DNA of 64,000 nucleotides from Aliiroseovarius sp. F20344 (GTDB lineage Bacteria > Pseudomonadota > Alphaproteobacteria > Rhodobacterales > Rhodobacteraceae). The stretch lies in assembly GCF_023016155.1 (NCBI RefSeq), contig NZ_JALKBG010000006.1, forward strand, positions 248,001 to 312,000. Reading direction: 5' to 3'. Below the pieces are notes generated by a model. That model ran no database searches. It saw only the letters and a program-made list of their open reading frames with translations, and had not been told where the DNA came from. This document shows, piece by piece, positions 49,854-63,327 of the stretch; the stretch's first letter is position 1, and every line of letters starts with the position of its first letter. The position numbers and the translations under genes are program-made.

Positions 49854-50345
49854 ATGATCAAAACACTCGCAATGATTGGGGGGATTGCAGGCGCGGTGGC
49901 GCTGAGCCAGTTTCCTGAGTTTTCCCAGCAATATATGCAGCGCCTGTCTGGCGCACGGACCGAGCTCAAAGTGGTCACGGCCGGTTTTGATCTGACAGCG
50001 AAGGCTGCCGGGTTCACACGTGAAGAAGCCTTGGCGAAAATGGGGGGGTCGGAGTTTCAAAACGATCTGCGTGACCAAATGCAGGGCAGTTTTGACCGGT
50101 ACGACCGGCTGGACGCGTCCTACGTGGCTCTTAAAGGGACTGAGCCGTTGATGCGTCTAACAAAGCTCTGGCATTTCCGCGACACGGATTTGGTCCAGCG
50201 CACGTGGGACGAATACCGCCCCGCGATGCCGGTCACGGCTGATGGGCTTCTTTGCGCCGGGATCGGTTATCTTGGCGGGTGGTTGATTGTATCACTGTTA
50301 CTCGGTGCATTTCTGCGGCCGTTCCGAAGAACTGCCCGGCCCTGA
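49854..50345 (+). CDS. DUF2937-family membrane protein
   Basis: A 163-residue protein. An N-terminal hydrophobic segment (TLAMIGGIAGAVALSQFPEFSQQYMQRLSGA) and a C-terminal one (LCAGIGYLGGWLIVSLLLGAFL) flank a soluble middle of about 100 residues. The SQFPEFSQQYMQRLSGA segment matches DUF2937 as I recall it. The function is unknown. ATG 49854 was chosen over GTG 49845. Confidence 0.82.
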   Translation: MIKTLAMIGGIAGAVALSQFPEFSQQYMQRLSGARTELKVVTAGFDLTAKAAGFTREEALAKMGGSEFQNDLRDQMQGSFDRYDRLDASYVALKGTEPLMRLTKLWHFRDTDLVQRTWDEYRPAMPVTADGLLCAGIGYLGGWLIVSLLLGAFLRPFRRTARP

Positions 50346-50468
50346 GCAAGGCCAGGCTACAGACCTTATATCTAAACGACAGTTCCCCGCGTGAAATTCA
50401 ATTGGATTGCAATTGTGAAATCGCTCGCGAAACTAATGCTGGCGGTGCTGTTAAGATGTTCGAATTCT

Positions 50469-51545
50469 TCAGGATTGGCGAGGCGTGATCCGGTTCACAT
50501 GACCCATCTTACGACCGGGTTTCACCTCGGCCTTTCCGTATAGGTGCAGCGAAGCATTGCCTTCGCGGGCGATCTCGGGCACGCGATCCATATCGTTGCC
50601 AATCAAGTTTTCCATGACCACGTCTGCAAAACGCGATCCATCCCCAAGCGGCCATCCGGCCACGGCGCGGATATGCTGTTCAAACTGATCAATGGTACAG
50701 CCTTGTTGGGTCCAGTGGCCGGAATTGTGCACTCGCGGGGCAATCTCGTTCACGATCAGACCCTGAGGCGTGACGAAAAGCTCGACCCCCATGACACCGA
50801 CATAATCCAGCGCGTTCAGGATGTTGGCCGCCAGAAGCACCGCATCCATGCGCTGCGAGGCTGTCAGGTTTGCTGGCACTTTTGTGGTGTCCAGAATGCC
50901 ATCTTTGTGGACGTTTTCGCCGGGATCAAAGCAGGCAACATCGCCGCCAATACCACGCGCAGCAATCACGCTGACCTCATGAGAGAAGTCCACAAACCCT
51001 TCCAGCACGGAAGGCGCGCCTTGCATGTCGACAAAAGCCGCGTCTGCATCTGCGTCAGTTTTCAGCCGCGCCTGGCCCTTACCGTCATAGCCAAAGCGGC
51101 GGGTTTTCAGGATTGAAGGCGTGCCGATTTCAGCAACAGCAGCGGCCATATCCTCGGCGTTTTCCACATTCGCATAAGGGGCGACCTTCAGGCCCAGTCC
51201 CGATAGGAAGTTCTTTTCCGTCAACCGATCCTGACTAACCCGCAATGCCTCGCGGCCCGGACGTATCGGCTTATGGGCTTCAAGAACGTCCAGCGCTTCG
51301 GTTGGGATGTTTTCAAATTCGTAGGTGATCACGTCGACCGAAGCGGCGAATGCCTCGAGCGCAGCTACGTCATCATAGCCTGCCGTGGTCACACGATCTG
51401 CGACCTGACCGGCAGGAGGGTTCGCGCCCGGTTCAAAAATATGCGTTTTAAAGCCCAGACGGGAGGCTGCGACCGACAGCATGCGGCCCAGCTGGCCACC
51501 GCCAAGAATACCGATGGTGGCGCCAGTAGACAGCATATCAGTCAT
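50469..51545 (-). CDS. purK: N5-carboxyaminoimidazole ribonucleotide synthase
   Basis: A 358-residue ATP-grasp enzyme converting AIR, bicarbonate and ATP to N5-CAIR in purine synthesis. [22 protein letters not shown] opens the N-domain, [11 protein letters not shown] is the ATP-binding loop and [27 protein letters not shown] the metal-binding segment. It starts at ATG 51543-51545 inside the last codons of purE (8-base overlap), with GGATGA upstream; an ATG 9 bases later is possible. It is coupled to purE, which uses its product. Confidence 0.96.
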
Positions 51546-52026
51546 CGCTTGGTTCATCCGGGATCGAGGCCGACAGCGCGTCGCGCCACGCGTCCAAACG
51601 GGTTGCAAGGTCAGCATCCGTCACTGCCAGTATGCCCGCGGCCATCAGGCCCGCATTGGCAGCACCTGCTGCGCCAATCGCCATCGTGGCAACCGGAAAG
51701 CCTTTCGGCATCTGCACAATGGAATAGAGGCTATCAACACCAGACAGGGCACGTGTCTGTACCGGAACGCCAACGACGGGAATGCGGGTTTTCGACGCCA
51801 TCATGCCGGGCAGGTGTGCCGCTCCGCCAGCGCCTGCGATAATCACATGTAATCCGCGATCAGCGGCGGTCTTGCCGTATTCCCACAAACGGTCTGGGGT
51901 GCGGTGCGCGGATACGATATTGGTCTCATAGGCGATGCCCAATTCGTCCAAAATGGTGGCGGCTTCCTTCATCGTGGGCCAATCCGATTGGCTGCCCATA
52001 ATGATCCCGACTTTCACATCCGTCAT
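51538..52026 (-). CDS. purE: N5-carboxyaminoimidazole ribonucleotide mutase
   Basis: A 162-residue class I PurE converting N5-CAIR to CAIR. Motifs are [13 protein letters not shown] (catalytic Ser and Asp), [13 protein letters not shown] (catalytic His) and [12 protein letters not shown]. It is translated just before purK with an 8-base overlap. The length is normal. Confidence 0.97.
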
Positions 52027-52102
52027 GTGTCCCTCGCATCCCTAGCGTCAGTTGGCGCTTCCATACAGGCTATACGCCCCCTGATGCAATGCTGCGCTGC
52101 AA

Positions 52103-52321
52103 TCAGGCAATAATATCGGGGGTTAATTGGTCTTCGATCCGGGAAATCTTGTCTTTGAGCGCAAGTTTTTGCTTTTTCAGTCGCCGCAGACGCAACTGAT
52201 CCGCACGGCCACTTTCTTCAAGGGCGTGAATAGCTTGGTCCAGATCGCGATGTTCGGCGCGGAAGACCTCGAGCTCCACACGGAGCACATCGTCGGTCTT
52301 CATTTCTTTGGCATTGCTCAT
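52103..52321 (-). CDS. DUF465 (YdcH-like) small coiled-coil protein
   Basis: A 72-residue protein with a classic DUF465 core: LRVELEVFRAEHRDLDQAIHALEESGRADQLRLRRLKKQKLALKDKISRIED. The start is uncertain: I chose ATG 52321, but an ATG 12 codons earlier (52357) keeps the same domain. It lies upstream of purE on the same strand with a 76-base gap. The function is unknown. A paralogue-like protein is at 25537. Confidence 0.85.
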   Translation of the reverse strand: MSNAKEMKTDDVLRVELEVFRAEHRDLDQAIHALEESGRADQLRLRRLKKQKLALKDKISRIEDQLTPDIIA

Positions 52322-52483
52322 TTTCGAGTCGTTCTCGTTGAGTGGTTGCCCAACCATAACGTCAGACGGTCATTATCGCCAAGCAAAAGCCGCCTTGCAA
52401 CTGACTGGTTCGGCTCCCATATTCTTGGGGAGGTCGCCTTTTTAGGGGCCGATTAAACGTGTCGCTTATTCAAGGACGTGTCG

Positions 52484-52897
52484 ATGACAAAGATGAGCTT
52501 GGGAACGCATCCCTTTTTGCTGGGGTTTGAACAGCTGGAACGCATGGTCGAACAGGCCGCGAAATCTGGCAAAGATGGCTATCCTCCCTTTAATATCGAA
52601 CAGGTCTCTGACCGGGCCTATCGGATCACATTGGCCGTGGCCGGGTTCGCGGATGAGGACCTGTCGATCACGGTAGAGAACGCCAAACTGGTGATCCGTG
52701 GCGCGCAGAACGACAATGCTGAAGGGCGTGTGTTCCTTCACCGTGGCATCGCAGCGCGTCAGTTTATGAAAAGCTTTGTGCTGGCCGACGGGGTTGAGGT
52801 GTCTGGTGCGAAAACCGAAAACGGTCTTTTGCACATTGACCTGGAACGCGCGGAACCTGAAACGGTGGTTCAGACCATCACAATCAACAAGCAATAA
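52484..52897 (+). CDS. Hsp20-family small heat-shock protein
   Basis: A 137-residue IbpA-type chaperone. The N-terminal segment (SLGTHPFLLGFEQLERMV) and YPPFNIEQVSDRAYRITLAVAGFADEDLSITVENAKLVIRGAQ open the alpha-crystallin domain, which ends with HRGIAARQFMKSFVLADGVEVSGAKTENGLLHIDL. ATG 52484 has AAGGAC upstream; a GTG at 52478 would fall too close to it. It is divergent from the DUF465 gene. Confidence 0.92.
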   Translation: MTKMSLGTHPFLLGFEQLERMVEQAAKSGKDGYPPFNIEQVSDRAYRITLAVAGFADEDLSITVENAKLVIRGAQNDNAEGRVFLHRGIAARQFMKSFVLADGVEVSGAKTENGLLHIDLERAEPETVVQTITINKQ

Positions 52898-52988
52898 TCC
52901 CCGCACCCGTAGGGCATTCCGGGGATTTCACCGGATTTGGGAAGAATCGTGCTATTCTTGCTGAAGTTGTTTTCAGGAGGAATTTGTC

Positions 52989-54095
52989 ATGGCCCGTGCG
53001 AATATGCGTGATCTGAGTTTTGCGACGATCAATCTTTTCAATCTGCAAGTCCCCGGTGGGATCACCTATTCCAATCGTCCGCATATCGAAGATGATGCCG
53101 AGGGCCGCGCTTACTATCAGCGCAAAATCAAGTGGACTGCCGCGCGCCTGAAAGAGGTCGATGCCGAAATCATCGCCTTTCAGGAGCTCTGGTCCGTTCT
53201 GGCCCTGCGCGAATGCTTTGCCGAGGCCGGATTAACCAATGACTATGATCTCGTGGCGCGGGATGCGCCGGGCCGAGGGCGGCCTCAAGTCGCTTTGGCG
53301 GTGCGTAAAGATCGACACGGGGGCTCTCAGCTAGCGCAAGGTGGCTGGCATGCTGACTTTCCTCCGCAGTTCAGGTTCGACAAGGTGCGCGAAACTGCCG
53401 GCGCCGAGGAAGAGATCACCATTACCATCAACAAATTCTCGCGGCCTTTGCTGATCGCCAAGATCCAGCCAGAAGGGGACAGTCCGACGCCACCAGAAGT
53501 GACCGTCGTTGTGGCCCACCTGAAATCAAAGGGTCCGGCGCGCGTGTCCTTTGCTCAGCCGCAGCCGGTCATTCTGCAACACCACGCCAAACACGCGAAA
53601 TCGACGTTGGCCCATATGCGCCGCGTGATGGAGGCCGGCGCGCTTCGCGTGCTTCTGGACGGCTGGATGAAATCCGAGGACGAAAACGACATTTCGCCGA
53701 CCATCGTGATGGGCGATCTGAACGACGACACGATGTCCGTGACAAACGAGCTGATTTCCGACCAGCCGACCTATCGCGTGGTGCAGAAAAGCCGGGCGGG
53801 GCTGACGTCAGACAAGGGGCTGTACTCGGTGGAACGCCTGCAACAATACCGATCCATGCGGCATGTCTATTACACCCATGTCTATAAGCATAAGCGCGAG
53901 AGCCTTGATCATATTCTGGTCAGTGAAGAGTTTTACGACCACTCCCGCAAACGCCTGTGGTCCTTCCGCGAGATGGAAGTGATCAACGATCACCTGAACC
54001 GCGAAAGCTTCGAAGAGGAGCTGGGTGCGTCAGACCACGGGATCGTCAAAGCCTATTTCGACTGGAACCCGATGCCGGATGGGCTAAGCAGCTGA
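52989..54095 (+). CDS. Endonuclease/exonuclease/phosphatase (EEP) family protein
   Basis: A 368-residue DNase I-like fold protein. Motifs are SFATINLFNLQVPG (first Asn), IIAFQELWS (metal-binding Glu), VVVAHLKSKGP, IVMGDLNDD (catalytic Asp/Asn), ESLDHILVSEEFYD and GASDHGIVKAYFDW. It lacks a signal peptide. The strand order is that of sphingomyelinase/nuclease-type EEP proteins; the substrate is not predictable. AGGAGG lies 7 bases before the ATG. It ends at a strong terminator shared with the sulfate-activation gene. Confidence 0.87.
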   Translation: MARANMRDLSFATINLFNLQVPGGITYSNRPHIEDDAEGRAYYQRKIKWTAARLKEVDAEIIAFQELWSVLALRECFAEAGLTNDYDLVARDAPGRGRPQVALAVRKDRHGGSQLAQGGWHADFPPQFRFDKVRETAGAEEEITITINKFSRPLLIAKIQPEGDSPTPPEVTVVVAHLKSKGPARVSFAQPQPVILQHHAKHAKSTLAHMRRVMEAGALRVLLDGWMKSEDENDISPTIVMGDLNDDTMSVTNELISDQPTYRVVQKSRAGLTSDKGLYSVERLQQYRSMRHVYYTHVYKHKRESLDHILVSEEFYDHSRKRLWSFREMEVINDHLNRESFEEELGASDHGIVKAYFDWNPMPDGLSS

Positions 54096-54107
54096 CGCGT
54101 GGCTAAC

Positions 54108-54139
54108 AAAAAAGCCCGGCGCAGTGGCCGGGCTTTTCG
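54108..54139. terminator. Bidirectional terminator
   Basis: A perfect stem AAAAGCCCGGC/GCCGGGCTTTT with a 6-nt loop, with A/T runs on both sides, between convergent genes. Confidence 0.93.
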
Positions 54140-54154
54140 TTAGATCAGGTCAGA

Positions 54155-56230
54155 TCAGGCTTTTACCAGACCCATGCTTTCCAGTTTCAGCAGAACTTGG
54201 TGGGCGCAGTTGTCGACGTCCACGTTCTCGGTCTCGACCGACAGTTCCGGGTTCGCAGGGACGTCATAGGGGTCCGAGATGCCGGTGAACTCTTTGATCT
54301 TGCCTTCGCGGGCCAGTTTATACAGGCCCTTGCGGTCGCGGCGTTCGCATTCCTCGATCGAGGTGGCGACGTGGACTTCAACGAATGCACCGAAGGCTTC
54401 GATGTCTTCTCGCACCGCACGACGCGTGGTTGCATAAGGCGCGATGGGAGCACAGATCGCGATACCACCGTTCTTGGTGATCTCGGAGGCCACATAGCCG
54501 ATACGACGGATGTTCAGGTCGCGGTGCTCTTTCGAGAAGCCAAGCTCGCTCGACAGATTTTTACGTACGATGTCACCATCCAACAGCGTCACGGGGCGAC
54601 CGCCCTGTTCCATCAGCTTCACCATCAGCGCGTTGGCGATGGTCGACTTGCCTGAACCCGAGAAGCCGGTGAAGAACACGGTGAAGCCTTGCTTGGCGCG
54701 CGGCGGTTTGGTGCGGCGCAGTTCCTTGACCACTTCGGGGAACGAGAACCACTCGGGGATCTCAAGGCCCTCGGCCAGACGACGACGCAGCTCGGTGCCC
54801 GAAATGTTCAGTATGGTGATGTCATCTTTGTCCTTAATTTCGTCGATCGCCTCATACTGAGCGCGTTCCTGAACCCAAACCATGTGCTTGAAGTCGACCA
54901 TTTCACAGCCGATTTCCGATTGGTTCGCCCGGTACAGTTCTTGCGCGTCATAGGGGCCATAGAAATCTTCACCAGCCGAGTTCTTGCCGGGGCCTGCGTG
55001 GTCGCGGCCCACGATGAAGTGGGTGCAGCCGTGGTTGGCGCGGATCAGGCCGTGCCACACAGCTTCACGCGGACCAGCCATACGCATGGCAAGGTTCAAT
55101 AGCGACATGGTGGTGGTCGATGCCGGGTATTTGTCCAGAACGGCCTCGTAGCAGCGCACGCGGGTGAAGTGGTCTACATCGCCCGGCTTGGTCATGCCGA
55201 CAACCGGGTGGATCAGCAGGTTGGCCTGAGCTTCTTTCGCGGCGCGGAAGGTCAGTTCCTGGTGCGCACGGTGCAGCGGGTTGCGGGTTTGGAAGGCCAC
55301 AATCTTGCGCCAGCCCAACTTGCGGAAATAGGCGCGCAGCTCGTTCGGGGTGTCGCGACGACCGCGGAAATCATAGTGGACAGGCTGCTGGATGCCGACA
55401 ACCGGACCACCCAGATAGATCTTGCCGGCTTGGTTGTGCAGATAGTTGACAGCAGGGTGCGCATCATCATCCGCACCGAATACCTTCTCGGCCTCGCGGG
55501 CCTTATTCGGTTCCCAGCGGTCGGTGACTGTCATGGTCGCCAGAATGACACCTTCCTGATCGCGCAGGGCAATGTCCTGTCCTAGTTCGATCGACTGGGC
55601 AAAGTCTTCGGACACATCCAGCGTGATCGGCATCGGCCACAGTTGGCCGTCAGCCAAACGCATGTTTTCCACGACGCCGTTGTAGTCTTCTTCGCTCAGG
55701 AAGCCTTTCAGCGGGTTAAAGCCGCCATTCATCAGAAGCTCAAGGTCGCAGATCTGGCGCGGGGTCAGATCATGGCTGGTCAGATCAGCCGCTTCGACTT
55801 TCAGCTTCAGCGCGCTTTCGTGGCTGACATAAAGCTCGGGAATAGGAGCAAGATTGTTTTCCATAAGATTGGTCCTGTGTTTAAGCGGAACCAGGCCGCT
55901 GGTTGTACCGGTTAGTTCCGCGTGCAATGCGTCATATTCTGCAAGCTTGCGGTTCAAAAAAATGTCTGTGAGCCGCACCTTTTCCGAAGCACCGCGTGCG
56001 GTCAGCGAATATGCAAACCGCTGACGTTTGTCCGGGCCGCTGCGTTCGCTGATCGTGATCAGCCCAGCATCGACTGCGGTACGCAGAAGCGCATTTAGCC
56101 GACCCAGTGACGTTCCAATCGCCGTGGCGATCGCGCGTTGCGATGCTTCCGGCGCCGTATCCAGCTGGCGCAGAAGACGGAAGAGCTGATCTTCCTCGTC
56201 CGGATTGGGTTTTGTCACGGGTGACGACAT
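54155..56230 (-). CDS. Winged-helix (MarR-EPS-like) - ATP sulfurylase - APS kinase fusion
   Basis: A 691-residue open frame. Residues about 10-95 form a winged helix-turn-helix (FRLLRQLDTAPEASQRAIATAIGTSLGRLNALLRTAVDAGLI). RLTDIFLNRKLAEYDALHAEL follows, a hallmark of the EPS-associated MarR-type regulators. Residues 123 to about 510 are ATP sulfurylase (QTRNPLHRAH at 314-323, GRDHAGPG). Residues about 515-691 are APS kinase with P-loop GFSGSGKST (522-530). Sulfurylase makes APS and the kinase makes PAPS, the sulfate donor. Sat-CysC proteins normally begin near residue 123, at ATG 55864, which has its own Shine-Dalgarno. No stop separates the HTH part, so it is either a true fusion or a two-product gene. 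A palindrome lies directly upstream. Confidence 0.88.
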   Translation of the reverse strand: MSSPVTKPNPDEEDQLFRLLRQLDTAPEASQRAIATAIGTSLGRLNALLRTAVDAGLITISERSGPDKRQRFAYSLTARGASEKVRLTDIFLNRKLAEYDALHAELTGTTSGLVPLKHRTNLMENNLAPIPELYVSHESALKLKVEAADLTSHDLTPRQICDLELLMNGGFNPLKGFLSEEDYNGVVENMRLADGQLWPMPITLDVSEDFAQSIELGQDIALRDQEGVILATMTVTDRWEPNKAREAEKVFGADDDAHPAVNYLHNQAGKIYLGGPVVGIQQPVHYDFRGRRDTPNELRAYFRKLGWRKIVAFQTRNPLHRAHQELTFRAAKEAQANLLIHPVVGMTKPGDVDHFTRVRCYEAVLDKYPASTTTMSLLNLAMRMAGPREAVWHGLIRANHGCTHFIVGRDHAGPGKNSAGEDFYGPYDAQELYRANQSEIGCEMVDFKHMVWVQERAQYEAIDEIKDKDDITILNISGTELRRRLAEGLEIPEWFSFPEVVKELRRTKPPRAKQGFTVFFTGFSGSGKSTIANALMVKLMEQGGRPVTLLDGDIVRKNLSSELGFSKEHRDLNIRRIGYVASEITKNGGIAICAPIAPYATTRRAVREDIEAFGAFVEVHVATSIEECERRDRKGLYKLAREGKIKEFTGISDPYDVPANPELSVETENVDVDNCAHQVLLKLESMGLVKA
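55862..55876 (-). promoter_or_regulatory. Internal ribosome-binding site and start for free Sat-CysC
   Basis: Within the fusion frame, AGGA (55873-55876 on the minus strand) lies 8 bases before an in-frame ATG (55862-55864). Translation from here gives a 569-residue protein (MENNLAPIPELYVSHE), the usual length for Rhodobacterales Sat-CysC enzymes. Confidence 0.6.
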
Positions 56231-56246
56231 AACTGGCGACTCAATG

Positions 56247-56266
56247 TGTGTTCACGCGTGAACGCA
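56247..56266. promoter_or_regulatory. Palindromic operator upstream of the HTH-Sat-CysC gene
   Basis: The 14-bp core GTTCACGCGTGAAC (56250-56263) is a perfect palindrome. It extends to 20 bp with a single mismatched pair and ends 16 bp upstream of the start codon. The position suits repression by the gene's own HTH domain. Confidence 0.65.
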
Positions 56267-56350
56267 TTGCATGGTTTTCTGCGCACGCAAAGTGTTTTTT
56301 GCGGGGAAAACGCGAAAATCTAGGACGTGGCCTGCTGGCAACGCCGGAGA

Positions 56351-56803
56351 CTAGGGTGTTTGTGCGGGAAAGGGCTGGGGTGTGCCTGCTTGTTCCAGCG
56401 TAGCCAAGGTGTCAGTGAAAACAACAAGGTGAGTGAGATCTGGACGTGAGCGAGAGGAATAAAGCATCCCCTGCGCGCCTGAAGTGCGCGCTGCATCTGA
56501 AAGCTCCCATGTGGACGGGATCTGCCCACATGCCCGTTCATCTTGCCAAACAACGGATGCCGTGGTTTGCCCACGCAGATCGGTCACGCGTTCTAGCGCC
56601 ACTGTCAACGGCACGATATGGCGCGGGGCATCACGATCCCCCAAATACCGCTTGATCGCTACGCCGCAGCCTTCCGGCGTCAACGAAGTATAGATCGCAA
56701 ATTGACCTGAATGATGAAACCGCCCTTCAGGCCATCGCACAGGCAAAAGCGCATCCTGGTCGGTGAAGACCAAACGATGCGCAATGCCTGTGAAAGAGAT
56801 CAT
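56351..56803 (-). CDS. RES-domain-like protein
   Basis: A 150-residue protein that resembles RES domains (ADP-ribosyltransferase fold; NAD+ phosphorylase toxins such as MbcT). The matching elements are an Arg near the N-terminus (GIAHRLVF), the segment EGRFHHSGQFAIYTSLTPEGCGVAIKRYL, and the C-terminal Ser-containing AQGMLYSSRSRPDLTHLVVF. Toxin members have an adjacent Xre/MbcA-type antitoxin, but none is next to this gene. Its ATG overlaps the trxB stop (ATGA), so it is expressed with thioredoxin reductase. The match is from memory of the family pattern and needs a profile search. Confidence 0.62.
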   Translation of the reverse strand: MISFTGIAHRLVFTDQDALLPVRWPEGRFHHSGQFAIYTSLTPEGCGVAIKRYLGDRDAPRHIVPLTVALERVTDLRGQTTASVVWQDERACGQIPSTWELSDAARTSGAQGMLYSSRSRPDLTHLVVFTDTLATLEQAGTPQPFPAQTP

Positions 56804-57741
56804 TCTTGTTCCGACAAGAAGTGCTCGGCTTCCAGTGCGGCCATGCAGCCCATCCCGGCTGAAGTCACGGCTTGGCGGTATTTATGGTCCGTCAGGTCAC
56901 CAGCGGCAAATACGCCGGGGACCGAGGTGGCAGTCGAGTCCGGTTTGGTCACAACATAGCCGCCCATATGAGTTTCCAGCGTATCCTTCACCAACTCATT
57001 GGCTGGGGCGTGGCCGATGGCGATGAAAACACCTTTGGCCGGGATCTCGGTGATCTCGCCGGTTTCAACATGTTTTGCACGCACGCCGGTGACGCCCAGC
57101 GGATTTTCGTCGCCAACGACCTCTTCCAGCGTGTGATCCCAAAGGGGAACGATCTTTTCGTTCTTCATCAAGCGGTCGATCAGGATCTTTTCGGCGCGCA
57201 GCGTGTCGCGGCGGTGGATCAAGGTCACTTTCGACGCGAACTTGGTCAGGAACAGTGCCTCTTCCACAGCGGTGTTGCCGCCGCCGACAACAACGATTTC
57301 CTCGCCACGATAGAAGAACCCGTCACAGGTTGCGCAGGCGGAAACGCCGAAACCTTTGAACTTCTCTTCGCTTTCCAGCCCCAGCCACTTGGCACGTGCG
57401 CCGGTGGCCAGAATAACGGCATCGGCAGTATAGACCGTGCCACTGTCACCTTTGGCGGTGAAGGGGCGTTTCGAAATGTCCAGATCCACGATCAGGTCGC
57501 CAATCACCTCGGTGCCCATCGCGCGTGCGTGCTCTTCCATCTTCATCATCAGCTCGGGGCCTTGGATGTCGATGAAGGAAGGATAGTTCTCAACTTCGGT
57601 CGTGGTGGTCAGTTGTCCACCAGGCTCCATCCCCTGCACAAGGATCGGTTCCAGCATGGCGCGCGCGGCGTAGACGCCAGCGGTATAACCGGCGGGGCCT
57701 GAGCCGATGATCAGGACATTGGTGTGACGAGTCTCGGACAT
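56800..57741 (-). CDS. trxB: Thioredoxin-disulfide reductase
   Basis: A 313-residue FAD enzyme that reduces thioredoxin with NADPH. FAD motif VLIIGSGPAGYTAGVYAAR is at residues 9-27, the redox pair is Cys136/Cys139 in SACATCDGFF, NADPH motif VVVGGGNTAVEEALFL follows, and GVFAAGDLTDHKYRQAVTSAGMGCMAALEA ends the FAD domain. The ATG at 57739-57741 has AAGGA upstream; earlier in-frame ATGs lie in the promoter. It is divergent from lrp and overlaps a RES-domain gene downstream. Confidence 0.97.
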   Translation of the reverse strand: MSETRHTNVLIIGSGPAGYTAGVYAARAMLEPILVQGMEPGGQLTTTTEVENYPSFIDIQGPELMMKMEEHARAMGTEVIGDLIVDLDISKRPFTAKGDSGTVYTADAVILATGARAKWLGLESEEKFKGFGVSACATCDGFFYRGEEIVVVGGGNTAVEEALFLTKFASKVTLIHRRDTLRAEKILIDRLMKNEKIVPLWDHTLEEVVGDENPLGVTGVRAKHVETGEITEIPAKGVFIAIGHAPANELVKDTLETHMGGYVVTKPDSTATSVPGVFAAGDLTDHKYRQAVTSAGMGCMAALEAEHFLSEQE

Positions 57742-57869
57742 GGAGTTTTCCTTGAGCATTCTAGTTTCGTGTCGCATATAAGCGTGCCGAGCCTGTAATG
57801 AAAGGCCATTGCGGGTCGGATGCAAGCCAATCTTGCAACCGCACGGACCGCACCCTCCAAGAAATGATG

Positions 57870-57927
57870 TTGCGCCAGTGTGAAAGATTGTTGCGCAATC
57901 CTTCATGTGGATGTAATCTCTGCGCAA
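57870..57927. promoter_or_regulatory. Repeated TTGCGC boxes upstream of lrp
   Basis: TGCGC cores at 57871, 57892 and 57921, the middle one inside the palindrome TTGCGCAA. Offsets are 21 and 29 bp, so the first two lie on the same helix face. They sit between trxB and lrp and could be Lrp autoregulatory sites. Confidence 0.45.
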
Positions 57928-57985
57928 TTTCCGATCGGAAGCCGCCATGTGGCGCGCCACCGGATACTCATCAGAAGGCAGCTCA

Positions 57986-58486
57986 ATGTCCGCAAGTAAA
58001 CTTGATCCAATCGACCGTATGATTCTGGCCGAACTTCAGGCCGACGGTCGTATGACCAACGTGGAACTCGCAAAACGCGTTGGGATATCCGCGCCGCCCT
58101 GTCTGCGTCGCGTACGCACGCTGGAAGAGCATGGGTTGATCCGGGGTTACCACGCGGATGTAGACGCGCGCGCGCTGGGCTTTGAAGTGCAAGTTTTCGC
58201 GATGGTGGGTCTTGTCAGTCAGGCCGAGATTGACCTGTCTGCGTTTGAGGCACAGTGCCGCGATTGGCCGCTGGTTCGCGAATGCCACATGCTGAACGGC
58301 GAGGTGGATTTCATTCTGAAATGTGTTGCGCCGGATCTGTCGACCTTCCAAAGTTTCCTGACGGAAGAATTGACTGCGGCCGAGAATGTGGCGTCGGTGA
58401 AAACCTCGCTGGTTATTCGCGGGGCAAAGGATGAACCAGGCGTGCCGTTTGACGTGCTGGAAGCGCGGATGGAAGACACCCCATAA
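57986..58486 (+). CDS. Lrp/AsnC-family transcriptional regulator
   Basis: A 166-residue regulator with an N-terminal HTH (LDPIDRMILAELQADGRMTNVELAKRVGISAPPCLRRVRTLEEHGLI) and a C-terminal RAM effector domain (GFEVQVFAMVGLVSQAEID to FQSFLTEELTAAENVASVKTSLVI). This size and HTH match leucine-responsive Lrp proteins. The ATG at 57986 has AGAAGG upstream. It is divergent from trxB, and repeated boxes upstream suggest autoregulation. Confidence 0.92.
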   Translation: MSASKLDPIDRMILAELQADGRMTNVELAKRVGISAPPCLRRVRTLEEHGLIRGYHADVDARALGFEVQVFAMVGLVSQAEIDLSAFEAQCRDWPLVRECHMLNGEVDFILKCVAPDLSTFQSFLTEELTAAENVASVKTSLVIRGAKDEPGVPFDVLEARMEDTP

Positions 58487-58511
58487 GGGGTTCGGTTCCA
58501 TCGACACTCTG

Positions 58512-58547
58512 AATGCCGACCACATCGTTGGCGGCATTTTTGTTTGC
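58512..58547 (+). terminator. Terminator of lrp
   Basis: Stem AATGCCG/CGGCATT with a 13-nt loop, followed by TTTTTGTTTG, between lrp and the convergent pgeF. Confidence 0.75.
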
Positions 58548-58552
58548 TTGGC

Positions 58553-59311
58553 CTAAAGACGGATGGCTGAGATCAATCGCCCGTAATCCGGCTCGTTCTT
58601 ATGGCAGGTGCGACGATAGGAATAGAAACGATCCGGATCGGAATAGGTACAGTGGCCTGTCCATTCAGCATGCCCGATACCTGCGGCTAGAAGCCTATGC
58701 AGGCCAAAAGCGGGCAGGTCAAACATGGCGCGGTCGCCGTTGCCATCGGTGAAGAAGCGGTCATAGCTCTTGTCATGGCCTGTGAACTCTTCGCGAAACT
58801 CGGGGCCGACTTCGTAGGCACTGGGGCTAATGGTCGGGCCGATGACAGCGGTGATACTTGCACGTTTCGCGCCAAGCGCTTCCATCGCCTCCAACGTGGC
58901 TTCCAATACGCCACCAATCGCGCCTTTCCAACCGGCATGGGCCGCGCCGATAACATTGGCGTCGGGATCGGAAAACAAAACAGGTTGGCAATCAGCCGTC
59001 AGTATCGACAGCGCCAGCCCCGGTGTTGCGGTGACCACAGCATCCGCCTTGGGCTTGTCCCCATTGATGGGACCTTCTGCTGTGACTACGTCTGGCGAGT
59101 GGATTTGATACACGCCGCACAGATGGCTGGGCGCCACATCCAGCGCCTGCGCCACGCGGTCTTTGTTGATCTGCACCAGCTCGGCCTGATCTTTGCTGCC
59201 ACTGCCGCAGTTTAATCCCGCATACACGCCCGAGGACGCGCCCCCCTTTCGGGTGAAGAACCCGTGCCGGGTTGCACCAAGTGCGTCAGAAGTCAAAATC
59301 TCAAGTGCCAT
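58553..59311 (-). CDS. pgeF: Peptidoglycan editing factor / laccase-domain purine nucleoside phosphorylase
   Basis: A 252-residue YfiH-family protein: TRKGGASSGVYAGLNCGSGS, ILTADCQPVLF, GAAHAGWKGAIGGVLE and GHCTYSDPDRFYSYRR are the conserved zinc-site segments. Family members act as purine nucleoside phosphorylase/adenosine deaminase or help correct peptidoglycan precursors. The ATG at 59309-59311 overlaps the end of midA by 11 bases, so it is coupled. It is the last gene of lgt-midA-pgeF. Confidence 0.92.
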   Translation of the reverse strand: MALEILTSDALGATRHGFFTRKGGASSGVYAGLNCGSGSKDQAELVQINKDRVAQALDVAPSHLCGVYQIHSPDVVTAEGPINGDKPKADAVVTATPGLALSILTADCQPVLFSDPDANVIGAAHAGWKGAIGGVLEATLEAMEALGAKRASITAVIGPTISPSAYEVGPEFREEFTGHDKSYDRFFTDGNGDRAMFDLPAFGLHRLLAAGIGHAEWTGHCTYSDPDRFYSYRRTCHKNEPDYGRLISAIRL

Positions 59312-60395
59312 CGGAATGCGCCTGTGACCTATTGCGTTGAAGGCCGGGTAGATCGGGCGCATCGGCGCGAGTCAGTCCCAGTACTTTGAAGAGCGTCCCC
59401 ATTTCATCGGGATGCGTCAAGCGCCGGTGTGCAGCGATATGCGCGTTCAGCGCCTCACCGCTGAGCTTTCCTGCAAGGTTTTGTGCCCGCGCTATAATGC
59501 CAAGCCGTTCCAAGAACACGCCTTGCGGGGTCAAGAGATGTGGGTCGAGCTGATCGGCCGCGCTGGTGAGTGCCGCGAAGTCGACATGCGCCGTCAGGTC
59601 AGCGTTTCCGGGCGTTGAAAGCGGGGGAACAGGGGTGTGATCCTTCACGGCCTGCAATGTATCCCCGACTGATACCCAATCACCGTAGTCGATGATCAAC
59701 ACAGCCCCGCCATGTGCCGCGATGCACTGGGCTATCGTTTTCGTGATGCCCATTGCTGCAGAGCAATGTTCGACCAGATCCCCATCTTTGGTGTCAGACA
59801 GTCGGTGCGCCAAATCCTCAACGGGCATCTGTGCGGTCAGCCCCATTGTCAGCTTTCCGTCTTCAATCCCGATCTGACGCTCGCGCCAGCCGTCGCCATC
59901 CCTTTGGAATTGCCGAATTGGCAACGCATCAAAGAACTCATTTGCGACAAGGAAAAGAGGGGCATCGGGAAGGGTGCCAACACTGTCGTGATGTGTGACG
60001 TGATAGGTTGCAAGCTGTTTGGACTGTCGGTCGCGCAAAACGGGCGAGGCTTCGATCAGATGCACCTGAGCGGCGGCGTGAAATCCCGGTACGCCCTTCG
60101 TGGCGCGCAATATGTCGGCCATCAGCGTCCCGCGACCGGGCCCAAGCTCTGCCAGTGTGAACGGGGAGGGCGATCCTTGATCCATCCAAGCTTGTGCCAA
60201 GGCAAGCCCGATCATCTCACCAAACATTTGGCTGATTTCCGGTGCGGTGGTGAAATCTCCCTCAGCGCCCAACGGGTCCTTTGTGGCGTAATATCCATGC
60301 TCCGGATGGAGAAGGCACTCTGCCATATATTCCGCGATTGAGATCGGACCGGTCTTGGCGATACGGCGCGTCAGAATGTCTTCAAGCGTTGTCAT
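59301..60395 (-). CDS. SAM-dependent methyltransferase, NDUFAF7/MidA family
   Basis: A 364-residue protein of the MidA/NDUFAF7 family. The conserved ISIAEYMAECLLHPEHGYYATKDPLGAEGDFTTAPEISQMFGEMIG start is followed by the SAM-binding LAELGPGRGTLMADILR and NEFFDALPIRQF. In mitochondria, NDUFAF7 methylates an arginine of complex I subunit NDUFS2; a role in complex I assembly is likely here by homology. The start overlaps the lgt stop by 14 bases. Confidence 0.9.
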   Translation of the reverse strand: MTTLEDILTRRIAKTGPISIAEYMAECLLHPEHGYYATKDPLGAEGDFTTAPEISQMFGEMIGLALAQAWMDQGSPSPFTLAELGPGRGTLMADILRATKGVPGFHAAAQVHLIEASPVLRDRQSKQLATYHVTHHDSVGTLPDAPLFLVANEFFDALPIRQFQRDGDGWRERQIGIEDGKLTMGLTAQMPVEDLAHRLSDTKDGDLVEHCSAAMGITKTIAQCIAAHGGAVLIIDYGDWVSVGDTLQAVKDHTPVPPLSTPGNADLTAHVDFAALTSAADQLDPHLLTPQGVFLERLGIIARAQNLAGKLSGEALNAHIAAHRRLTHPDEMGTLFKVLGLTRADAPDLPGLQRNRSQAHSDGT

Positions 60396-61287
60396 GAACG
60401 GCGCGCCGGTTGGCCCAGATCAGTGTAGCAATGCCGATGGCGATCATTGGCAAGGTCAGGGTTTGGCCCATGGTGATGCCAAGGTCGCCGACCCGGATTA
60501 CATGGCCCCAAGGATTGTCTGGCGTGATGAACTGGGCGTCTGCCTGCCGGAAGAACTCGACCATGAAACGGGCTAAGCCGTATCCCAGAAAGAACAAACC
60601 TGTCAGTTTGCCGGGGTGCTTTAGCCAGCCACGTTTGAACGCCAATGTGATCATGATGATCGCTAGGATGAAACCCTCAAGCGCTGCTTCATAAAGCTGG
60701 CTTGGATGCCGTGCGCAGGCTCCAAGGGTTGCGTCCCAACCGGGACAGTCCTGAGCTGCCGCGCCGGGAAATATCACGCCCCAAGGCACAGTGGTTGGTC
60801 TGCCCCAAAGCTCGGCATTGATGAAGTTGGCGAGGCGGACAAGGCCGATGCCAATTGGCGCGGCAATAGCGACGAGATCGGCAAACTTGGCCAGCTCGAC
60901 CTTGTGACGCATGGCATAAAGCCACGTTACCAAAATGACCCCGGCGAAGCCGCCGTGAAAGGACATGCCCCCGGTCCAGATCTTTGGGATGTCACCGGGG
61001 TTGGCCATGAAATAGGCACGCTCGTAGAACATGACATAGCCAAGGCGCCCCCCGATGATGATGCCCACAATGGCCCATGTTGCATAGTCTTCAAGCTGCG
61101 CGCGTGTGATCGGGGGGTCACCAATCCAAAGCGACACCCGGCTGATGGCGCGTGCCATCACCCACCATCCAATGGCAATGCCAACAAGGTAACCCAAAGC
61201 ATACCAGCGCAGGGCAAAAGTGAAGCTGCCAATCTCGATCGAAAAGATCTCGGGCGCGATGGCGGGGAAGGGGATGGCCATAAACAT
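60382..61287 (-). CDS. lgt: Prolipoprotein diacylglyceryl transferase
   Basis: A 301-residue inner-membrane enzyme that attaches diacylglycerol to lipobox Cys. Several membrane helices are present, with the signature GLVRLANFINAELWGRPT, the HGG segment GMSFHGGFAGVILVTW and RHPSQLYEAALEG. The start at ATG 61285-61287 is the best guess; the next in-frame ATG is 2 codons later, and the open frame upstream lacks Lgt-like sequence. It heads lgt-midA-pgeF and is divergent from ubiK. It would process the many lipoproteins of this window. Confidence 0.95.
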   Translation of the reverse strand: MFMAIPFPAIAPEIFSIEIGSFTFALRWYALGYLVGIAIGWWVMARAISRVSLWIGDPPITRAQLEDYATWAIVGIIIGGRLGYVMFYERAYFMANPGDIPKIWTGGMSFHGGFAGVILVTWLYAMRHKVELAKFADLVAIAAPIGIGLVRLANFINAELWGRPTTVPWGVIFPGAAAQDCPGWDATLGACARHPSQLYEAALEGFILAIIMITLAFKRGWLKHPGKLTGLFFLGYGLARFMVEFFRQADAQFITPDNPWGHVIRVGDLGITMGQTLTLPMIAIGIATLIWANRRAVHDNA

Positions 61288-61381
61288 ATCGCTGTGTTGA
61301 ACCTCTTCTTCGGGGCAAGTCAACCTTGTCTCTGCGCGTTCAAGCCCCCATATAGGGCTCAGTTCAAGCGAGGAGAAGCAC

Positions 61382-61624
61382 ATGCAGACGCGCAACAAGG
61401 TTTTTGACGACATTTCCCAACTGATGACCAACGCCATGGGCGTGGCGCAGGGCGCGAAGGACGAAGCCGAGACCGCGATGAAAAGCTGGATGGATCGCTG
61501 GTTGGCGGATCGTGACTTTGTCACCCGCGAAGAATTCGACGCTGTACGCGCGATGGCCCAGAAGGCCCGCGAAGAAAACGAAGCCCTGAAAGCGCGCATC
61601 GACGCGTTGGAAGCCAAGAAGTAA
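61382..61624 (+). CDS. ubiK: Ubiquinone biosynthesis accessory factor UbiK (BMFP family)
   Basis: An 80-residue protein: NKVFDDISQLMTNAMGVAQGAKDEAETAMKSWMDRWLADRDFVTREEFDAVRAMAQKARE, then ENEALKARIDALEAKK, the typical YqiC/UbiK amphipathic helix and C-terminal coiled coil. UbiK supports the ubiquinone-synthesis complex. AGGAGAA precedes the ATG. It is divergent from lgt with a 94-bp region between them. Confidence 0.88.
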   Translation: MQTRNKVFDDISQLMTNAMGVAQGAKDEAETAMKSWMDRWLADRDFVTREEFDAVRAMAQKAREENEALKARIDALEAKK

Positions 61625-61675
61625 TCTAAACTCGATTACCCTTGGAGGTCTGAGGGCGTCTTGGAACTGTTACAT

Positions 61676-61699
61676 GAGTGTATTCAAAGGGTTACACTC
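61676..61699. promoter_or_regulatory. Inverted repeat upstream of phoX
   Basis: GAGTGTA and TACACTC form perfect 7-bp arms around a 10-bp spacer. It is preceded by CTGTTACAT, which loosely resembles a Pho-box half. It may be a regulator site for phoX. Confidence 0.4.
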
Positions 61700-61703
61700 G
61701 ACA

Positions 61704-61753
61704 CCTAGGAAAACAGCAAGCGTGCAATTACGCGCGTGCTGCTTTTACCTAGG
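61704..61753 (+). promoter_or_regulatory. Leader hairpin covering the phoX Shine-Dalgarno
   Basis: The arms (CCTAGG at 61704-61709 with CCTAGG at 61748-61753, continuing inward through AAA/TTT, CAGCA/TGCTG and GCGTG/CGCGC) give about 19 base pairs with small interruptions. The 3' arm includes AGG of the AGGAGA Shine-Dalgarno (61751-61756), 8 bases before the ATG. The stem could hide the ribosome-binding site, or act as a terminator-like element. Confidence 0.5.
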
Positions 61754-61764
61754 AGACACTTCCA

Positions 61765-63327
61765 ATGAAAAAGACGCTAGCTTGCCTGTTGGCTGCCACG
61801 TCGGTGACCCCTGTTGTCGCATTTGCTGACGGCCACATTCTGAAACGCGTTGCCACAGTTCAGCTTGGTGCCGAAATCACCGGGATCTATGAAGAAGGCA
61901 ACGACCTGTTCTTCAACACACAGCATCCGGAAACAGAGCTGGGCAATCAATTTGCCAAGGCAAGCGTCGGCGTGATCTCAAACGCCAACTGGGACGCGGG
62001 CGAGCTGGCCGTGCCGACAGCAGATGCCGACAAAGCCCGCGTTATGTCTACGCTGGGCGACTACCAAATCCTGATGCAGGAAGGTGATAACGGCGTAATG
62101 GGTGTGATCAAGACCATCGGTGGCGATGAGTTGCTGACGTCGAACGACCCGGATTTCAACGGATATGTCAAAACTGGCGACAACACTGGCTTTCTGTTCA
62201 CCAACTGGGAAAACCGCCCCGGCGGGATGAGCCGCGCCGCTTTGACCCGTGCTGAAGATGGCACTTGGTCTGTGGGGGAAACCATGATGCTTGACTTCTC
62301 ATCCGTGCGTGGCACTTGGGTGAACTGCTTTGGCACGATGACCCCTTGGGCGACCCCGCTGTCATCAGAGGAGCTGTATTTTGACAACTCGGCTGACTGG
62401 AACAATCCGGGCTACAAGTATCACGAAGACCAACTGAATCTGGCCAAGTATCTGGGCGGAGAATTCCCGAACCCGTACGACTATGGCTACATCGTCGAGG
62501 TCTCGGACCCGGCTGCGTCCGCGACACCGGTTAAGCATTTCGCGATGGGGCGTTTCAGCCACGAAAATGCGGTTGTCATGCCCGATCACAAGACGGTTTA
62601 CTTGTCGGATGACGGCACAGATGTTGTGTTCTTCAAGTTTGTCGCGGACAAAGAAAACGATCTGTCGGCTGGCACGCTCTATGCTGCCAAAATGGTTCAG
62701 CAGGATGAAAGCAATGCGGCTGATGCGTCCAAAACCGGTTTTGATGTTAGCTGGATCAAGCTCGCACACGGCACCAGCGCCGAGGTTGCAGCTTGGGTGC
62801 GCGAATACGACGGCATCACGCCAGAGAACTTCGTGGAAGGCCAGAACAGCTATTTGACCGAAGGAGACATCGCCATATGGGCACAAGGCAAAGCTGCGGA
62901 CAACCGCGTGGCCTTCCTTGAAAGTCGTAAAGCAGCTGCTGCGAAAGGCGCCACTGCCGAGTTCCGTAAGATGGAAGGCGTTAACATCAACTACGAAGGC
63001 GCCAAGGACGGGTCGGTTCCGTATATGTACATGGCCATGTCGTCGATCGGCAAAGGCATGGCAGATGGTGAAGGCGACGTGCGTCTGGAAGCCAACAAAT
63101 GCGGCGTTGTCTACGAGATGAAGCTGGAAGCAGATTTCGACGTGAAGACCATGGTGCCGGTTGTGGCTGGTCATGGCTACAACAAAGACAATGCGCCGAA
63201 TGCCTGCCCGGTCGATTCCATTTCAAACCCCGACAACTTGGTGGTTCGCCGCGATGGGTCGGTTTTGATTGGCGAAGACACCGGCAAGCACGAAAACAAC
63301 GCGCTGTGGATTTGGAAGCGCGGCTAA
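61765..63327 (+). CDS. PhoX-type (DUF839) alkaline phosphatase
   Basis: A 520-residue exported protein (signal peptide MKKTLACLLAATSVTPVVAFA). The DUF839/PhoX beta-propeller elements include NCFGTMTPWATPLSSEE, DYGYIVEVSD, GRFSHENAVVMPDHKTVYLSDDGTDVVFFKFVAD and the C-terminal DNLVVRRDGSVLIGEDTGKHENNALW. PhoX enzymes are calcium/iron phosphatases exported to gain phosphate from organic esters. Some DUF839 proteins are not phosphatases, so the activity is probable rather than sure. A long leader hairpin covers its ribosome-binding site. Confidence 0.85.
   Translation: MKKTLACLLAATSVTPVVAFADGHILKRVATVQLGAEITGIYEEGNDLFFNTQHPETELGNQFAKASVGVISNANWDAGELAVPTADADKARVMSTLGDYQILMQEGDNGVMGVIKTIGGDELLTSNDPDFNGYVKTGDNTGFLFTNWENRPGGMSRAALTRAEDGTWSVGETMMLDFSSVRGTWVNCFGTMTPWATPLSSEELYFDNSADWNNPGYKYHEDQLNLAKYLGGEFPNPYDYGYIVEVSDPAASATPVKHFAMGRFSHENAVVMPDHKTVYLSDDGTDVVFFKFVADKENDLSAGTLYAAKMVQQDESNAADASKTGFDVSWIKLAHGTSAEVAAWVREYDGITPENFVEGQNSYLTEGDIAIWAQGKAADNRVAFLESRKAAAAKGATAEFRKMEGVNINYEGAKDGSVPYMYMAMSSIGKGMADGEGDVRLEANKCGVVYEMKLEADFDVKTMVPVVAGHGYNKDNAPNACPVDSISNPDNLVVRRDGSVLIGEDTGKHENNALWIWKRG

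Follow-up and report, generated by a model that had tools for sequence, protein, structure and literature searches.

A MarR-type helix-turn-helix fused to ATP sulfurylase-APS kinase as a probable autoregulator of sulfate activation in Rhodobacteraceae

A 64,000 nt stretch of the genome of Aliiroseovarius sp. F20344 (contig NZ_JALKBG010000006.1, positions 248,001 to 312,000; hereafter the window) contains an open reading frame (ORF) of 691 codons on the reverse strand (54155-56230) in which a MarR_EPS-like winged helix is joined to a complete ATP sulfurylase-adenosine 5'-phosphosulfate (APS) kinase, Sat-CysC. Comparison with related loci indicates that the gene probably encodes a trigger-enzyme-type autoregulator of sulfate activation, where the helix-turn-helix (HTH) fusion would repress its own gene and an internal start would yield free Sat-CysC. 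At the level of sequence the comparison establishes the fusion itself, a linker of fixed length, the association of the fusion with an upstream palindrome and a conserved internal start.

An earlier note on this DNA had read the frame as an HTH followed by Sat-CysC, and this was confirmed exactly by profile matches to TIGR04176 (MarR_EPS) and NF004040. Residues 120-690 matched NF004040/PRK05537 at 1029.6 bits (curated cut-off 669) and represent a true Sat-CysC, with the Pfam domains PUA_2, ATP-sulfurylase and APS_kinase almost full length and with 2gks and 3cr8 as solved relatives of the enzyme domain. The catalytic motifs QTRNPLHRAH, GRDHAG and the P-loop, which the note had listed as present, were all found and are conserved in 31 aligned fusions (Table 1). 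A search of the N-terminal region with the MarR_EPS profile of exopolysaccharide (EPS)-associated regulators gave 81.6 bits for residues 12-107 within the whole protein and 86.1 bits when the first 122 residues were searched alone, so that the suggested resemblance stood while the score remained under the curated cut-off of 88 bits. Since the HTH is below this cut-off and lies away from an EPS locus, we describe it as MarR_EPS-like and not as a member of the family. The structure model of the HTH (predicted local distance difference test score, pLDDT, 84.6) contains three helices, a wing and then a long helix (78-110), and its best PDB matches were MarR-family regulators with E values down to 4.4e-05.

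The distribution of the fusion was determined in a sample of 394 Rhodobacteraceae genomes with approximately one genome per genus. Some HTH match was present in 161 genomes and a Sat-CysC match in 324, while about 90 genomes among the matches listed had an HTH at 53% identity or more. These close matches sit in stop-free frames of 690-1059 amino acids (aa), the exceptions being G400, with a fusion frame of 601 aa, and G052, with a frame of 267 aa where the contig ends within Sat and the two parts are joined in frame. On this count about a quarter of the sampled Rhodobacteraceae genera have a predicted fused sulfate-activating enzyme, which answers the domain-architecture search that the earlier note had proposed; for the close HTH relatives the opposite case, in which a conserved stop would always keep HTH and enzyme apart as separate genes, can be discarded. 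Below 53% identity the listed HTH frames were mostly free-standing and of 120-225 aa, with one long case (G316, 48%, 713 aa). Among 21 genomes of the genus the HTH lies in a frame of 694-714 aa in 18, G016 is truncated at a contig edge, and no HTH match was found in G013 and G015. A class-wide sample of 385 genomes, containing few Rhodobacteraceae, had the HTH in a long frame in just two, both Rhodobacteraceae, and none of 30 matching records in a plasmid collection spanned 80% of an HTH-plus-Sat query. HTH identity reached 94% in the best named relatives, which are Aliiroseovarius, and the named genera with the fusion include Shimia, Leisingera, Phaeobacter and Aliiroseovarius. One further record (L175, JAHVJD010000004.1) is titled Nocardioides marinus; as its fusion locus is typical of Rhodobacteraceae, it is probably mislabelled or contaminated.

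The loci fetched were pooled to give 110 distinct fused loci, and in 108 of these the distance from HTH to enzyme was equal. A sequencing or assembly error as the origin of the joint frame was ruled out by this constant linker and by the long joint frames across genus and family. Ratios of nonsynonymous to synonymous substitution (dN/dS) were approximately 0.11 for the HTH (147 usable pairs), 0.14 for the linker (88 pairs, a value from 10 codons, the remaining pairs being unusable) and 0.067 for Sat (150 pairs), with 150 of 158 pairs of chosen similarity measured. By this measure the HTH and linker are under purifying selection. In an HTH tree all 110 fused sequences fell on one side of 12 free-standing ones with a support of 89, on few alignment columns and with a very long branch for L212. 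The latter locus (G316:C156:1300-3456) has a highly diverged MarR-type HTH that a longer linker joins in frame to Sat-CysC, together with two palindromes in tandem and a ribosome site of its own, and is perhaps an independent fusion. A tree of fused and unfused Sat-CysC required 27 label changes, where shuffled labels needed 30.6 on average, and left 79 of 141 inner branches open; its starred branches forced just one label change, and it was uninformative on HTH gain versus loss.

The evidence that the HTH acts on its own gene comes from the region in front of the start codon. Of the 110 fused loci, 108 carry the palindrome GTTCANNNNTGAAC directly before the start, while a reversed control motif was found in none. 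The 400 nt in front of each of 34 unfused Sat-CysC genes, a hand-picked and non-random set from the upper part of the Sat-CysC matches listed, contained no match even with one mismatch (Fisher p ~5e-31, the loci not being independent). Of the two exceptions, L029 carries two one-mismatch sites, and in L062 a contig end cuts the site, its other half apparently opening a different contig. There are 27 variants of the central four bases, and the palindrome is perfect over 14 bp in 53 of the 108 sites; in six loci it recurs, with at most one mismatch, 25-32 bp further upstream. Conservation around the palindrome is confined to a CTTTGC block, a TGCRATG block and ACACTTTGAGTCG, other upstream columns being mostly 0.3-0.5. 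The two congeners without the HTH (G013, locus L223; G015, locus L222) have a Sat-CysC 91-92% identical in a syntenic locus with trxB, hsp20 and purE, and there we found neither an HTH remnant nor a match to the extended operator pattern. The palindrome, with zero or one mismatch, was also found within 300 bp upstream of 9 of 12 free-standing MarR_EPS genes, the three without it over that distance being L203, L204 and L210. Because the palindrome tracks the presence and absence of the HTH and is often found at free-standing MarR_EPS genes, we take GTTCANNNNTGAAC to be the predicted operator, which the fused HTH probably recognises.

It could be argued that a different regulator binds the palindrome and that the HTH, as a tether or a relic, no longer binds DNA, since the sites of different MarR-type regulators may resemble one another. 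We consider this quite unlikely given that palindrome and HTH co-occur and are both missing in G013 and G015, that the source genome holds no second match to the fusion HTH at E 1e-3, and that the HTH is conserved at the dN/dS given above.

The second line of evidence concerns the internal start. In the 110 loci this codon is ATG in 96, GTG in 12, TTG in one and ACA in one (L173), where an ATG immediately precedes the ACA. The residue at this position varies between Met, Val and Leu while the codon stays NTG, and only 41% of the other Val codons are GTG; nine changes in start-codon identity were needed on a weakly resolved tree. An AGGA lies eight bases before the internal start in 109 of 110 loci, the exception being L212, which has GAGAGGA slightly further up. 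The Arg codon AGG, which accounts for 0.7% of 5296 other Arg codons in the fused genes, appears to be kept because the AGGA ribosome site imposes it. Median duplex energies were -4.0 kcal/mol for the internal site, -2.2 kcal/mol for the first start and -3.05 kcal/mol for the starts of unfused Sat genes. The internal start might be an unused relic of separate genes, with just the 691-aa protein being made, and the free-enzyme start does resemble those of unfused genes. That explanation is unlikely when NTG is kept in 109 of 110 loci despite the Met/Val/Leu changes and AGGA, with its very rare AGG, is kept in as many. The expectation of a 691- and a 569-residue product thus has strong comparative support in the conserved internal start and ribosome site. 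A trigger enzyme and a fused leader regulator had been put forward as alternatives in the earlier note: the trigger idea is backed by the palindrome (108/110 versus 0/34), but the two options are not exclusive, since the gene appears to be built for both the fusion and the free enzyme.

We propose that full-length HTH-Sat-CysC subunits would pair through their HTH helices, and that the paired fusion would bind GTTCANNNNTGAAC beside the promoter-like blocks upstream of its own start codon and, on binding, would repress rather than activate the gene. From the same mRNA the internal ribosome site and start would give free Sat-CysC, so that most of the enzyme would probably be without an HTH and a minority would carry it. 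The free enzyme would provide the catalytic activity and might enter mixed oligomers with little affinity for DNA. The enzyme part could modulate DNA binding through enzyme abundance, through occupancy by ATP, APS or 3'-phosphoadenosine 5'-phosphosulfate (PAPS), or through mixed dimers with the free enzyme. A more specific version, which we put forward tentatively, is a self-titrating switch where the weak first start gives the repressor-enzyme and the stronger internal start the free enzyme, the product ratio and ligand state together setting repression; mixed oligomers would then reduce the number of paired HTHs. The same palindrome evidence would also fit plain dosage feedback, in which the HTH represses constitutively according to the abundance of the fusion, without metabolite sensing, and the fusion ties repressor to enzyme level. 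This is a rather plausible alternative, if short of an even chance, and no ligand site outside the catalytic domains turned up in the domain scans, beyond which no further search was made. Dosage feedback alone, however, leaves the fixed-linker fusion in 108 of 110 loci unexplained, as a free repressor would suffice.

The range of targets was assessed in the source genome, where eight exact matches to the palindrome were found and only that of the fusion gene itself lies outside a recognisable coding frame. Four of the eight are copies of GTTCAACGTTGAAC in one repeated segment that is EF-Tu (tuf)-like by eye, located at G000:C3:409, C4:409, C4:23923 and C7:23139, near contig ends. These copies are identical over 408 bp to the left of the site and over 868 bp from the site rightwards; they were rejected as extra operators, and the repeats probably mark assembly breaks. 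The remaining three lie inside icd-like, LuxR-type and kpsC-like capsule frames, as named by eye. The fusion's own gene is therefore the only predicted target recognised in the source genome. Of the 19 genus genomes that have the HTH, 18 matched at the fusion promoter when the extended pattern was used with at most one mismatch. A strict flanked pattern gave 59 sites in 54 of 198 family genomes, 18 at the fusion promoter, four at free-standing MarR_EPS genes and 37 elsewhere. We inspected 35 loci (10 fusion promoters, three at free-standing MarR_EPS genes and 22 off-target), locating sites that bear a mismatch with a loose pattern. All 22 off-target sites fall within frames of 150 aa or more, which is weak evidence of coding because long frames also cross several fusion promoters. 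A recurring GGGTTCATCCATGAAC was rejected as an operator, since in L238 and L255 it lies inside a region that by eye resembles the Walker B region of ATP-binding cassette transporters, and no recurring second target recognisable as a regulatory site was seen among the inspected off-target sites.

The earlier note had suggested that the fusion might control genes for sulfated EPS, binding operators at EPS loci with the specificity of its MarR_EPS cousins. The cousins often share the palindrome, two of those that are plasmid-borne adjoin polysaccharide genes, one exact match falls in the kpsC-like capsule gene, and off-target sites exceed the reversed control. The idea is nevertheless unsupported in the source genome, where the sole exact operator outside a recognisable coding frame belongs to the fusion's own gene and the other exact matches sit inside the tuf-like, icd-like, LuxR-type and kpsC-like frames. 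A flanking-gene comparison, proposed in the same note, gave trxB and lrp as the conserved neighbours. No polysaccharide genes were seen by eye among the ORFs of window positions 50000-62000, and the flanks of relatives were not searched for EPS genes. We consider a link of the fusion to EPS genes very unlikely; in other genomes such targets may exist. Of 80 named loci, 78 have trxB upstream in the same orientation, at times with a RES gene between; a trxB match was present in 79 of 80 and an lrp-type gene in 76 of 80. For comparison, trxB was just upstream of 17 of the 34 unfused Sat-CysC genes, with 1.2-1.5 kb upstream covered.

Several observations weigh against an operator-bound autoregulator with a second product. 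The 110 fused loci share descent and were collected via HTH or Sat. A consensus promoter scan called no standard sigma-70 promoter at the operator. Against its PDB matches the HTH model reaches query template modelling (TM) scores of just 0.43-0.61. The full-length model (pLDDT 48.6) was unusable, and dimerisation and signal transfer are therefore without support from geometry. The internal ribosome site is moderate in energy, a value of -4 being attained at 19% of 1586 other in-frame ATGs, and the evidence for it is its conservation and not its strength. With the extended pattern, 16 off-fusion sites were found in the 21 genus genomes versus three for the reversed control, and the 37 strict-pattern sites elsewhere in the 198 family genomes compare with 12 for the control; the strict pattern also misses the fusion promoter in 19 of 37 fused genomes. 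We cannot fully explain this three- to five-fold off-target excess, and there may be further targets beyond the fusion's own gene.

The fusion is the sole PF01747 ATP sulfurylase of the source genome, whose two PF01507 proteins are both CysH-type with paired-cysteine motifs, a signature that we take to be the mark of APS reductases; both score under the cut-off of the NCBIfam APS-reductase model. Because both PF01507 proteins have these APS-reductase-like cysteines, the pathway probably branches at APS into cysteine synthesis and PAPS, the latter perhaps being used mainly by sulfotransferases.

Table 1. Positions in the window of the fusion gene, its parts and its upstream elements.
Feature	Position	Strand	Basis
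CTTTGC block, -35-like	56287..56292	-	columns 0.58-0.97 conserved; putative promoter role
TGCAATG block, -10-like, one base before operator	56265..56271	-	conserved block; putative promoter role
Operator-like palindrome GTTCACGCGTGAAC	56250..56263		19 bp before start codon; GTTCANNNNTGAAC at 108/110 fused, 0/34 unfused
HTH-Sat-CysC fusion ORF, 691 aa	54155..56230	-	ATG at 56230; domain matches; architecture common to relatives
MarR_EPS-like winged HTH with long C-terminal helix, residues 12-107	55910..56197	-	TIGR04176 score; model pLDDT 84.6; MarR-type matches
Linker GTTSGLVPLKHRTNL, residues 108-122, fixed length	55865..55909	-	equal length in 108/110 loci; dN/dS 0.14 (10 codons)
Internal ribosome-binding site AGGA, 8 nt before internal ATG	55873..55876	-	kept in 109/110; imposes AGG
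Free Sat-CysC, 569 aa, putative internal start ATG at 55864	54155..55864	-	NTG at 109/110 loci; NF004040 1029.6 bits
ATP sulfurylase motif QTRNPLHRAH (HxxH), residues 314-323	55262..55291	-	invariant in 31 aligned fusions
ATP sulfurylase motif GRDHAG, residues 408-413	54992..55009	-	invariant in 31 aligned fusions
APS kinase P-loop GFSGSGKST, residues 522-530	54641..54667	-	invariant save F523 in 31 aligned fusions
Terminator-like GC-rich stem, then T-run	54107..54137	-	by eye; terminator scan without any call

Other observations concern the surroundings of these genes. In the window a RES-domain gene lies at 56351-56803, between trxB and the fusion, and a RES match was present in 9 of 80 named loci. 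The second CysH gene (L231; G000:C3, ~121538-122038) adjoins a UDP-sulfoquinovose-synthase-like gene (339.9 bits, cut-off 575) and is beside a Sulfotransfer_4 protein and, by eye, a glycosyltransferase-like frame; it is possible that this is a sulfolipid or sulfation cluster with its own reductase. On a Roseobacter denitrificans plasmid (L230, NZ_CP027408.1) an unfused Sat-CysC is found near polysaccharide export and sugar-nucleotide genes, and sulfate activation there may therefore serve polysaccharide sulfation.

The fusion can be compared with known enzymes that double as regulators. The architecture of NadR is an HTH followed by a nicotinamide mononucleotide (NMN) adenylyltransferase and a ribosylnicotinamide kinase, and the fusion is alike in having an N-terminal HTH, then a nucleotidylyltransferase, then a P-loop kinase, with enzyme and regulator in one chain; the families, pathway and operator are different. 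We know of no internal start in NadR, nor of a conserved dual start in PutA, whose chemistry differs from that of the fusion and whose DNA-binding fold, ribbon-helix-helix, is also another. NadR and PutA are both named among E. coli trigger enzymes in the excerpt of PMC8249747 available, where PutA, a proline dehydrogenase with a DNA-binding domain acting as regulator, is single-target in E. coli and NadR is multi-target as unpublished data, while for the fusion one target was recognised. Of three features expected of a trigger enzyme, the third being control of DNA binding by substrate or product, two are seen here: predicted catalytic and DNA-binding domains in one chain, and an operator-like site in front of its own gene, the latter in 108 of 110 loci. 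The free-standing TIGR04176 MarR_EPS regulators have a related HTH (34-42% identity) and the same palindrome upstream in 9 of 12, but are separate proteins, two plasmid examples of which stand beside polysaccharide genes, and their C-terminal helix sequence continues where the fusions have LTGTTSG. Sat-CysC enzymes of NF004040/PRK05537 share the complete enzyme, although 2gks and 3cr8 align to the enzyme part alone and the 34 unfused genes are without HTH and palindrome. Alternative translational initiation is described for Arabidopsis ATP sulfurylase, where it serves dual localisation to plastids and cytosol, and no DNA-binding domain is mentioned in the excerpt of that source (PMC4283515).

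The fusion was undescribed in the open-access literature searched, a coverage that leaves most subscription journals and all bioRxiv preprints outside, and the phrase "MarR family EPS-associated" was found in a single open-access paper, available as an excerpt (PMC10599003). The congeners G013 and G015, set against those that bear the HTH, form a natural comparison pair for the regulator. To our knowledge there is no earlier trigger enzyme of sulfate activation, nor a dual start that tunes such a regulator. If true, the self-titrating switch would be the first sulfate-activation trigger enzyme and the first regulator tuned by a dual start. An enzyme that would control its own gene at the APS branch point, and whose gene has an exactly placed predicted operator and would also give a second product, could be tested directly in named relatives such as Shimia, Leisingera, Phaeobacter and Aliiroseovarius, and the separable HTH, fixed linker and internal start would make this family of genes a clean model for the evolution of an enzyme into a regulator.

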